NCBI GenBank assembly: GCA_000245075.1
Contig: JH599944.1
Location: 1 to 64,000 of the forward strand
Direction: 5' to 3'
From: Acetobacteraceae bacterium AT-5844
Lineage (GTDB): Bacteria; Pseudomonadota; Alphaproteobacteria; Acetobacterales; Acetobacteraceae
DNA: 64,000 bases
Part shown: piece by piece, positions 38,631 to 45,132 of the stretch
Layout: every line of letters begins with the position of its first letter
How positions within the stretch are numbered: position 1 is the stretch's first letter
Notes under the pieces: generated by a model
The model's input: only the letters and a program-made list of their open reading frames with translations
Database searches by the model: none
Told to the model about the DNA's origin: nothing
Made by a program: the position numbers and the translations under genes

Positions 38631-41876
<3,246 letters not shown>

Positions 41877-41877
41877 G

Positions 41878-42324
41878 TCAGGAACTCTTGCGGTTCGCGG
41901 GCGGGAAGGCCCTATGGACGGCGAGGATGCAGATGAAGGCCGGATACTGGGCGATCATGGCCAGGACCGCTGCGGCGCCACGGCGGTCGCCGGCAGAACT
42001 TCCGCCAGAATACGGCTCAAAGAAGGTGTAAAATCCAAGGAAGCTGATGAGAAGCGTTGCGGCGAAAGCGGAGAACTCCCCCGTGACACGCCTGAGCACG
42101 AGAAAAGTGCCCGCGGCGGCGAGGCCGGGGAGGAGTACGAGAGGCAACGCGAAAGGAGCCACGATCGGAGCCCACAGAAGCAACACCAAAGAGCGTGGCG
42201 GATTGGTGAGGCCAATCATGATCAGGACAAAAACCAGAGGGCCCATCAGCAGAATGAGGGGCAGCTTCCACCAATTGGCTTGCGGATGCAGAGTGGCATC
42301 CGCTGGAGAAGGCTGCCCCGTCAT
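41878..42324 (-). CDS. Membrane protein, unknown
   Basis: 148 residues with four hydrophobic stretches ([76 protein letters not shown]). The DNA is somewhat AT-richer than its neighbours. It lies one base from the carB start and three from the SDR stop, so it is probably carried in the car transcript. No family recognised. Confidence 0.7.
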
Positions 42325-42327
42325 GCT

Positions 42328-43077
42328 TCACCCATGCACCGACATGCCGCCATCCACGGGGATGGCTGTGCCGGTGATGAAGGCCGCGGCGTCGCTGGCC
42401 AGGAAGGCGGCGATGCCGGCGAAGTCGCCGGGCAGGCCCCAGCGCTTCTGCGGGGTGCGTGCCAGCACGCGGTCGTTCAAATCCGGCATGTCGCGCTTGG
42501 CGCCAGCCGTCAGCTCGGTCTCGATCCAGCCGGGAAGGATGGCGTTGGCGGTGATGCCATCCGGCCCCCAGGCCACGGCCAGGTTGCGCATGTATTGCAC
42601 GATGGCGCCCTTGCTCGCGCCATAGGCGGGGGAGAGCGGCAGGCCGAAGATCGACATCATCGAGCCGATGGAGATGATACGCCCGCGCCCGCTGGCCTTG
42701 AGGTGCGGATAGGCTGCGCGGCTCATCCGCATGGCGCTGGTGAGGTTGGCGTCCATCACCGCCATCCACTCATCATCCGTCACGTCCTGCGGCAGGCGGC
42801 GGATGTTGGTGCCGGCGTTGTTCACCAGGATGTCGATGCCACCCGCATGCTCCACCACCTGGGCGATCACGCGGTCCGGCGCATCCTTCTCGGTCAGGTC
42901 GGCCTGGATGGCGAAGGCGCCTTCGCCCAACTCCGCCACGGCGGCCTTGTTCTTGTCGGCATTGCGGCCCACCACGGCCACCCATGCGCCGGCCTTGGCC
43001 AGCCCGCGCGCCATGCCGAGCCCGATGCCGCCATTGCCGCCGGTGACAACCGCCACCCGTCCGCTGAGATCGAACAT
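42328..43077 (-). CDS. Short-chain dehydrogenase/reductase (SDR)
   Basis: 249 residues, classical SDR. Cofactor motif VTGGNGGIGLGMA (11-23), NNAG at 86-89, catalytic Ser139, Tyr152 and Lys156 (AYGASKGA), and a C-terminal ITGTAIPVDGGMS. It resembles 2-deoxy-D-gluconate 3-dehydrogenase/KduD-like or gluconate 5-dehydrogenase enzymes, but the substrate is uncertain. GGAGAGAGGAGAG precedes the ATG. A stem AGGGCTG/CAGCCCT sits in the short gap after carA. Confidence 0.9.
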   Translation of the reverse strand: MFDLSGRVAVVTGGNGGIGLGMARGLAKAGAWVAVVGRNADKNKAAVAELGEGAFAIQADLTEKDAPDRVIAQVVEHAGGIDILVNNAGTNIRRLPQDVTDDEWMAVMDANLTSAMRMSRAAYPHLKASGRGRIISIGSMMSIFGLPLSPAYGASKGAIVQYMRNLAVAWGPDGITANAILPGWIETELTAGAKRDMPDLNDRVLARTPQKRWGLPGDFAGIAAFLASDAAAFITGTAIPVDGGMSVHG

Positions 43078-43107: not shown

Positions 43108-44490
43108 TCAGCCCTTCTGCGCCTCGATCATCTCAACGAAGCGGTGGAAGAGATAGTGGCTGTCGGAGGGGCCGGGGCTGGCCTCCGGGTGGTACTGCAC
43201 GGAGAAGGCGGGCTTGTCGGTCGAGGCGATGCCCTCATTGGAGCCATCGAACAGCGACTTATGCGTTACCTTCACATTGGCGGGCAGGGAGGCCTCATCC
43301 ACGGCGAAGCCATGGTTCTGGCTGGTGATCTCCACCTTGCCCGTCGCCAGGTCCTGCACCGGCTGGTTGGCGCCGCGGTGGCCGCGGTCCAGCTTGTAGG
43401 TCTTGGCGCCAAGGGAGAGCGCCAGCAGCTGGTGGCCGAGGCAGATGCCGAAGACCGGCTTGCCCGAGGCCAGCACGCCCTGAATGGCAGGCACGGCATA
43501 GACGCCGGTTGCCGCCGGGTCGCCAGGGCCGTTGGAGAGGAATACGCCATCCGGGTTGTGGGAGAGGATGTCCTCGGCGGTGGCGGTGGCGGGCACCACG
43601 GTCACGTCGCAGCCGGCATCGGCCAGGCAGCGCAGGATGTTGCGCTTGGCGCCGTAGTCGACGGCCACAACCTTATGCTTGCGCACCGGGTTCTTGTCGA
43701 AGCCCTGGCCCCAGGACCACAGCCCTTCTTCCCAGCTGTAGGACTGGCGGCAGGACACTTCCTTGGCGAGGTCCATGCCCTCCAGCCCCGGCCAGCCGGC
43801 GGCCTGCGCGCGCAGCGCGGCGAGGTCGAACTTGCCATCGGCGGGGAAGGCCAGCACGCCATTGGGCGCGCCGCCATCGCGGATGCGCAGCGTCAGCGCG
43901 CGGGTGTCCACGCCGGCAATGCCGGGGATGCCATAGCTCTTCAGCCAGTCATCCAGGTGGCGGGTGGCGCGATAATTGGCAGGCTCGGTGATGTCCAGCT
44001 TCACCACCAGGCCGCGCGCTGCGGGGGTGATGCTCTCGCTGTCCTCAACATTGGCGCCCACATTGCCGATATGCGGGAAGGTGAAGGTGATAATCTGCCC
44101 GGCATAGGAGGGGTCCGTCAGGGTCTCCTGATAGCCCGTCATGCCCGTGTTGAAGCAGACCTCGCCGACGGTGGTGGTGTTGGCGCCGAGGCCCACGCCC
44201 CAGAAGACGGAGCCGTCACCCAGAACCAGCGCGGCGGTGGCGCCCGGCGGAACCTGCTCCTGCTCATGGGTCTCGGCGTGCATCGGGCTCTCCGCATCGG
44301 TAGGGGTGGGGGTGCCTTGCGGCATATCGGCCAGGGTCAGGCCCGTGGCGGCGATGATGGCCGGCCAATGCTTGGCCGGGATGGCGCGGGACTGGCGCCA
44401 CTTGCGCAGCGCCTCCGTGCCAATGCCGCAACGCTGGGCGGCGGCTTCCGCGCCACCCATCAGGCTCAGAATGTCTTCCACGGACCGCAT
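43108..44490 (-). CDS. carA: Carbamoyl-phosphate synthase, small subunit, with N-terminal helix-turn-helix-like extension
   Basis: Glutamine amidotransferase subunit, 460 residues from the ATG with AAGG five bases upstream. CarA proper begins near residue 86 (TAALVLGDGSVFWG). The amidotransferase triad is Cys350 (FGICLGHQ), His434 and Glu436 (YHPEASPGP). Residues 1-70 are extra compared with E. coli CarA (382 residues): MRSVEDILSLMGG, then AEAAAQRCGIGTEALRKWRQ resembles a Cro/YdaS-type HTH. From memory a small domain named for carbamoyl-phosphate synthase N-termini has been catalogued in this bacterial group, function unassigned. Met70 (position 44283) has GGAGAG four bases upstream, so a short standard CarA may also be made. 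Two palindromes lie just upstream. Confidence 0.93.
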   Translation of the reverse strand: MRSVEDILSLMGGAEAAAQRCGIGTEALRKWRQSRAIPAKHWPAIIAATGLTLADMPQGTPTPTDAESPMHAETHEQEQVPPGATAALVLGDGSVFWGVGLGANTTTVGEVCFNTGMTGYQETLTDPSYAGQIITFTFPHIGNVGANVEDSESITPAARGLVVKLDITEPANYRATRHLDDWLKSYGIPGIAGVDTRALTLRIRDGGAPNGVLAFPADGKFDLAALRAQAAGWPGLEGMDLAKEVSCRQSYSWEEGLWSWGQGFDKNPVRKHKVVAVDYGAKRNILRCLADAGCDVTVVPATATAEDILSHNPDGVFLSNGPGDPAATGVYAVPAIQGVLASGKPVFGICLGHQLLALSLGAKTYKLDRGHRGANQPVQDLATGKVEITSQNHGFAVDEASLPANVKVTHKSLFDGSNEGIASTDKPAFSVQYHPEASPGPSDSHYLFHRFVEMIEAQKG

Positions 44491-44502
44491 GAGCGCCTTA
44501 TC

Positions 44503-44519
44503 TGGGAATTCCTTTCCCA
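44503..44519. promoter_or_regulatory. Palindromic operator candidate, proximal, carA leader
   Basis: TGGGAATTCCTTTCCCA: 6-bp arms TGGGAA/TTCCCA around five bases. It lies 12 bases upstream of the carA ATG. Same arms as the distal site. Confidence 0.6.
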
Positions 44520-44544
44520 AGGCAAGGATTCCCTCCCGCCTTTC

Positions 44545-44561
44545 TGGGAAATTATTTCCCA
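44545..44561. promoter_or_regulatory. Palindromic operator candidate, distal, carA leader
   Basis: TGGGAAATTATTTCCCA, a perfect 17-bp palindrome. Its centre is 42 bp from that of the proximal site, four helical turns. A further hairpin CCAGAGG-N5-CCTCTGG lies beyond it at 44570-44588, in the 183-base region shared with the divergent YqeY gene. Confidence 0.65.
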
Positions 44562-44673
44562 ATCTTTCCCCAGAGGCCGTTCCTCTGGCTCAACGGCCGG
44601 TGCCGGCCTTATACCCGCCACCACCTGCCCAGGGCGTTACTCCCTGCGGTCACCCCATCGAGGAGATCCTGTC

Positions 44674-45132
44674 ATGTCCCTGCGCGCCCGCTTCCTGGAG
44701 GAAATGAAGGCCTCGATGAAGGCCGGTGATTCCGCCCGCACCTCCGCCATCCGCATGGTCATCGCCAAGCTGAAGGACACCGACATCGCCGCCCGCCCGA
44801 GCGGCGTGGCCGAGGTGCCGGAGGAGCAGATCGTCTCCATGCTGCGCGGCATGGTGAAGTCCCGCCGTGAGAGCGTGGAGATGTACCGCCAGGGCAACCG
44901 CCCGGAGCTGGCGGAGAAGGAGGAAAGCGAGATCGCCGTCATCGAATCCTTCCTGCCGCAGCAGATGGATGACGCGGCGACCCAGGCGGCAGTCGACGCC
45001 GCCGTCGCGGCGACCGGCGCCACCACCATCAAGGATATGGGCAAGGTGATGGCCGAACTCCGCGCCAAGCATGCCGCCACGCTGGACATGGCCAAGGCCG
45101 GTCCGCTGGTGAAGGCGAAGCTGGGCGCTTAA
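44674..45132 (+). CDS. yqeY: GatB/YqeY domain protein
   Basis: 152 residues, standard for the stand-alone YqeY family: N-terminal helical part (FLEEMKASMKAGDSARTSAI) and the C-terminal three-helix domain shared with the tail of GatB. GAGGAG eight bases before the ATG. It is divergent from carA and precedes dnaG and rpoD, a neighbourhood conserved in many bacteria. Proposed role: tRNA-dependent amidation or tRNA binding, not proven for the free protein. Confidence 0.92.
   Translation: MSLRARFLEEMKASMKAGDSARTSAIRMVIAKLKDTDIAARPSGVAEVPEEQIVSMLRGMVKSRRESVEMYRQGNRPELAEKEESEIAVIESFLPQQMDDAATQAAVDAAVAATGATTIKDMGKVMAELRAKHAATLDMAKAGPLVKAKLGA

Follow-up and report, generated by a model that had tools for sequence, protein, structure and literature searches.

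Background

Enzymes that repress the genes of their own pathway by means of a DNA-binding domain are known, PutA, BirA and NadR being established enzyme-repressors of this kind. The carAB genes feed arginine and pyrimidine synthesis, and in Escherichia coli they are controlled by several separate proteins. Control of the E. coli operon involves the enzymes PepA and PyrH in moonlighting roles, as passages of one published account describe (PMC6245113). Here, we analysed a carA locus from a family of Alphaproteobacteria that seems to carry the regulator on the enzyme CarA itself. Like PutA, BirA and NadR, this CarA is a pathway enzyme with a DNA-binding-type domain and a predicted repressor of its own genes. 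Judged from comparative sequence data, repression of its own promoter by the HTH-bearing CarA is very probable in Roseomonas-like bacteria and the family to which they belong. Whereas enzyme-repressor fusions are already known, a CarA with a fused HTH domain and its own operators was not found in the open literature searched.

Results

A probable Cro-like domain precedes the ordinary CarA

In the window, that is, the whole 64-kb stretch of DNA analysed, the carA frame on the minus strand is open upstream of the ordinary start, ATG 44283, through ATG 44490, 69 codons earlier, and continues open to TTG 44562, which overlaps the distal of two palindromes (Table 1). The HTH-like stretch that the sequence-only reading had placed in a carA extension of about 70 codons is a member of the carph-isopro family NF046037, scoring 57.7 bits against a curated cut-off of 38. 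With the domain alone, the Pfam profiles YdaS_toxin and P22_Cro stay below their gathering cut-offs (23.0 vs 30 and 16.9 vs 30.2 bits, respectively). The chain is also a glutamine-dependent CarA by TIGR01368 (459.1 bits, cut-off 307.35, profile positions 1-360 of 361), with PF00988 and PF00117 matched in its catalytic part. The AlphaFold2 model of the domain (mean pLDDT 84.9) contains helices at residues 4-11, 14-21, 25-34 and 39-49, and its best structural matches are Xfaso 1 Cro and P22 Cro; as modelled, the CarA extension appears to be a Cro-like HTH nearest to prophage and P22 Cro. Codon-position mismatches between the window and 80 relatives (20/6/43%), together with profile matches in 115 of the 120 genomes of the same family (E up to 1e-3), indicate that the domain is conserved as protein. 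Annotators are probably already aware of the domain on CarA, given that it bears a curated name; the name 'carph-isopro' was not found in the open literature searched.

Table 1. Coordinates of the carA locus in the window
Feature	Position	Strand	Remarks
carB, large subunit (named by eye)	38631..41876	-	same strand, probably same operon
SDR-like gene (named by eye)	42328..43077	-	directly downstream of carA; probably cotranscribed; behind carA in 65/80 relatives
Long CarA: Cro-like HTH domain, linker and ordinary CarA	43108..44490	-	460 aa, start ATG 44490
Short CarA from the ordinary start, proposed second product	43108..44283	-	TIGR01368, PF00988, PF00117; internal-start class conserved
GGAGAG Shine-Dalgarno of internal start	44288..44293	-	precedes ATG 44283
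carph-isopro / Cro-like helix-turn-helix domain	44323..44481	-	NF046037 match; recognition helix residues 25-34, including Q33
Predicted -10 box GATAAG	44497..44502	-	abuts O1; 6 nt before ATG 44490
Proximal predicted operator O1	44503..44519	.	exact palindrome; fills 17-bp spacer of predicted carA promoter
Predicted -35 box TTGCCT	44520..44525	-	abuts O1; T, T, G in 140, 134, 136 of 142 relatives
Distal predicted operator O2	44545..44561	.	centre 42 bp from O1 centre
yqeY, divergent neighbour	44674..45132	+	PF09424

Twin palindromes upstream of carA

The twin palindromes reported earlier upstream of carA, TGGGAATTCCTTTCCCA (O1) and TGGGAAATTATTTCCCA (O2), are both exact copies of TGGGAA-N5-TTCCCA and the sole ones in the window and in the 5.19-Mb genome, where a first-order Markov model of the window predicts 0.002 exact sites per 64 kb and 0.17 per 5.19 Mb; a reversed-pattern control gave 0 matches. 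Their centre spacing, which had been read as four turns of B-DNA, is true of the window but uncommon in relatives. Among the 190 loci with two sites, the spacing is 38 bp in 69, 39 bp in 38, 40 bp in 24 and 37 bp in 18, but 42 bp in only 2, which rules out four exact turns as the spacing rule of the family. The divergent neighbour yqeY is encoded on the opposite strand from carA in 99 of the 109 family loci in which carA was detected. The gap between carA and carB in the window (41878-43077) holds the SDR-like gene and a small ORF.

Promoter geometry suggests a leaderless long form

The elements preceding the long form follow one another in the order TTGCCT, O1, GATAAG, 6 nt and ATG 44490. In 142 of the 211 unique loci, 10-15 nt separate the proximal palindrome from a start codon, and the second base at the -10 place is A in 120 of these 142. 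A somewhat different criterion classes 150 loci as leaderless-like; their start is ATG in 149, and in 144 it lies 12-14 nt past the palindrome. The AAGG to which ATG 44490 had been ascribed is present, but it overlaps GATAAG and reads better as part of a -10 box. Mapped promoters of Gluconobacter oxydans carry ttGnnn and Tatnnn boxes, and leaderless genes of this bacterium nearly always start with ATG, as stated in portions of a study (PMC5756330) in which carA is not mentioned. The placement of O1 within the promoter spacer, with an ATG 12-14 nt beyond it, suggests that the long carA form is leaderless, in which case its translation would start at an ATG at or beside the transcription start. 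About one third of the loci do not fit this picture, because their site lies farther from the start.

A Shine-Dalgarno-led start in the linker

Analysis of the linker between the domain and the catalytic part retained 202 of the 211 loci; the start counts given next were made on 104 loci of the family sample. In these 104 loci, AGGA, GGAG or GAGG precedes 47 of the 77 Met codons in the linker; the motifs stand before 188 of the 2474 remaining linker codons, before 7 of the 280 Mets of the catalytic part and before 2 of the 55 linker ATGs that are out of frame. ATG 44283, with its GGAGAG, is one of the conserved linker starts led by a Shine-Dalgarno motif, which were found in 56 of the 104 loci, window included (49 ATG, 4 GTG and 3 TTG), so that these 56 combine a conserved Shine-Dalgarno motif with an in-frame start, as in a two-product gene; 48 of the 104 have no internal start by the criterion used. 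An internal start is present in 106 of 143 leaderless-like loci vs 29 of 59 others. Short, plain CarA is thus likely to be made in many species, but not universally, because 48 relatives lack the start by this criterion.

The relatives without such a start would suit a gene that makes the long form only, the linker ATG and its Shine-Dalgarno motif being a relic of the carA start used before the fusion. Indeed, CarA proteins of the 28 outgroup loci that are best by E-value (see below) start about where the linker ATG sits. A neutral relic would, however, be expected to decay over such divergence, and although the linker varies in other respects, the odds of a Shine-Dalgarno motif are 19-fold higher in front of its Met codons than in front of its remaining codons. 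We therefore regard a long-form-only gene as rather unlikely, though still a serious competitor, and favour two products.

Repression or activation

Because O1 fills the spacer of the predicted promoter, from the -35 to the -10 box, long CarA bound there would exclude RNA polymerase and thereby repress carA and the genes behind it, probably the whole carA transcript. The distal site, mostly 37-43 bp upstream, may allow cooperative or bivalent binding through CarA or CarAB oligomers. Passages of PMC6245113 describe the CPSase of E. coli as heterodimeric in the presence of UMP and tetrameric in that of ornithine, ATP and potassium, and by analogy a CPSase oligomer switch is a possible route from metabolite to promoter in the present case; effector sensing through the oligomer state of CarA is speculative. 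Should the tetramer be the best binder, repression would be lifted by UMP, contrary to simple end-product control. The same changes of oligomer state, and the location of the distal site upstream of the -35 box, could also serve a domain that acts as an activator of carA, or as repressor or activator depending on CPSase effectors. We consider this unlikely: a proximal site within the core promoter agrees with repression, and the sign of an effector response is unreadable from sequence.

The palindromes accompany the domain

The sequence-only reading had suggested comparing CarA proteins with and without the extension, and the palindromes follow the extension in both groups. At least 1 palindrome (up to 2 mismatches) is present within 300 bp upstream of 103 of the 110 domain-bearing carA genes of the family, from which set L077, not a CarA, had been dropped. 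Two or more palindromes precede 76 of the 110, 27 have a single site and 7 have none at this threshold; an exact copy is found in 71. In shuffled upstream sequences, 1.6% contain a site and none an exact one. Named Acetobacteraceae loci from the species collection, in which carA was detected in 79 of 80 (the remaining one is a short contig), carry sites in all 80 cases, with two or more in 74 and one in 6. Across 120 family genomes, 90 of the 114 exact sites are located in the 110 carA upstream regions, 3 further ones precede carA of G066 and G098, and 21 are elsewhere, 11 of them in G072. The genome of G072 has 11 exact sites, compared with 0 to 3 in the other genomes listed.

For an outgroup, CarA was found in 73 of 96 genomes in a class-wide search, and 28 of the 30 loci that were best by E-value and were fetched came from other families. 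In these 28 carA loci, neither the domain (searched by sequence pattern, not profile) nor an upstream palindrome (up to 2 mismatches) was found. Within the family, three genomes carry a domain-less carA, namely G029 and G116, from one genus, and G413, from another. Because G029 and G116 share a genus and the other members of the genus of G413 read here have both the domain and the sites, these cases represent two losses. None of the three has a site between carA and its neighbour, or an exact site anywhere in the genome. Locus L128 contains two matches with 2 mismatches, one inside yqeY and one inside carA, but none between these genes. A carph-isopro profile search gave no match in G413 or G029, and retention of the domain as a separate protein was ruled out for G116, where the single match is a YdaS/Cro-like gene that faces a CI-like repressor in an apparent prophage. 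At L139, a prophage-like region, a YdaS/Cro-like gene stands opposite a CI-like repressor (assigned by eye), beside a D12-class adenine methyltransferase. In G413 (L328), yqeY was not found between carA and dnaG; G029 and G116 lost the sites yet kept yqeY, and site loss is therefore independent of yqeY loss.

Residue 33 of the domain covaries with the operator

Sites for the covariation analysis were found by the GGAA-N5-TTCC core only, and the outer bases were then compared with the domain. In the 183 unique loci with Q33 (Q after KWR), 655 of 710 half-sites have G at position 2, whereas in the 21 unique loci with S33, 58 of 68 have C there, these naturally switched versions having CCGGAA or GCGGAA half-sites. 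Loci with A, T or H at this residue (7 loci) have mixed or C-like half-sites. Altogether, non-Q domains were found in 27 genomes from 5 genera by a pattern search of 397 family genomes. Among 448 usable columns of long CarA, scanned blind in 124 rows of sufficient length, the column of Q33 ranks first as a predictor of the variable base of the operator (p 1.3e-18), followed by a column of the catalytic part (p 2.4e-12) and by G24 of the domain (p 3.7e-12), all by Fisher tests that ignore relatedness. Position 33 falls in helix 3 of the AlphaFold2 model, which by homology is the recognition helix.

In a tree built from the catalytic part, which left out L026, L058, L063, L093 and L095 as too short, at least 5 changes of residue 33 were counted and 8 of the operator class. 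Two S33 clades are separated by L091, which has Q and TGGGAA; S33 was therefore gained twice, or gained once and then reverted, the operator having followed each time. In an independent-pairs test of residue against operator, significance was out of reach with so few events on the tree. The exceptions are L095, an S33 locus with one TGGGAA site and one mixed site, L107 and L023, in which Q33 goes with C-type or mixed sites, and the T33 genomes, which are mixed. The covariation of residue and base provides strong, if not final, comparative evidence that the fused domain reads the palindromes.

These patterns bear on whether a separate trans-acting regulator binds the palindromes, with the CarA domain serving oligomerisation or partner binding. 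The genome does encode three other small carph-isopro-like proteins (C59, C65 and C106), one of them above the cut-off; nevertheless, the sites are lost together with the CarA domain, the exact sites are concentrated upstream of carA, and the operator base varies with a residue in the recognition helix of CarA, all of which make such a regulator improbable. Production of the short form only, with the upstream frame as an untranslated leader, is scarcely credible: the internal start has a good Shine-Dalgarno motif and ATG 44490 only AAGG, but the protein sequence of the domain is conserved, the internal start is lacking in about half of the relatives and the ATG lies at a fixed distance behind the promoter palindrome.

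Proposed mechanism

We consider it highly probable that CarA is an enzyme-repressor fusion, the long form of which binds O1 and O2 and represses carA and the downstream genes, with plain CarA added in many species. The earlier suggestion that the long form may bind the palindromes and autoregulate carA gains support from co-occurrence, co-loss and the covariation of residue 33 with the operator. As expected of a trigger enzyme, one CarA chain combines the enzyme and a DNA-binding-type domain, and comparative evidence points to cognate operators at its own promoter. The Cro-like domain of long CarA would bind both TGGGAA-N5-TTCCCA palindromes, and in many species the Shine-Dalgarno-led linker ATG would yield plain CarA from the same gene. 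More tentatively, and at somewhat less than even chances, one gene would give two CarA forms, a repressor-enzyme from a leaderless start and a plain enzyme from a Shine-Dalgarno-led one, with translation setting their ratio; CarAB oligomers of mixed composition, the assembly of which depends on ornithine, ATP and UMP, would bind the twin operators, and the promoter would read the amount and allosteric state of CPSase with no separate regulator.

The proposal is directly testable, because it names the operator, the probable reading residue (Q33), half-site position 2, and natural variants and losses. If true, the locus would show in nature how a Cro-type specificity residue and its operator coevolve among cellular genes, and would likewise be a natural example of a two-product gene with one leaderless and one Shine-Dalgarno-led start.

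Comparison with known systems

Carph-isopro matches in other alphaproteobacterial families were ruled out as CarA for the loci read, the proteins being Mitofilin-like. In L117, L118, L120-L124 and L126, a carph-isopro-like HTH occupies the N-terminus of a Mitofilin-like protein, an assignment that rests on PF09731 (3.2e-8) for L117 and on likeness for the other loci; a DNA-binding-type domain on a Mic60-type protein is odd. In L325, L326 and L327, a Cro-like HTH is N-terminal on a protein of ~280-300 aa resembling, by eye, a TorD/DmsD-type chaperone, and L325 also holds a formate-dehydrogenase-like frame (by eye). This HTH-chaperone-like fusion is possibly the same trick in another pathway.

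Among known proteins, the nearest to the domain of the window are probably the Cro proteins of prophages and phages, namely Xfaso 1 Cro (3bd1), P22 Cro (1rzs) and N15 Cro (2hin/6on0); the domain exceeds the curated cut-off of the carph-isopro model NF046037, which only names the domain. Moonlighting enzymes take part in the control of E. coli carAB, as is proposed here too, but there they are separate proteins, whereas here the DNA-binding part is on CarA. Unlike PutA, BirA and NadR, CarA is a different enzyme joined to a different HTH family, its gene seems to make a domain-less enzyme too, and its long mRNA looks leaderless.
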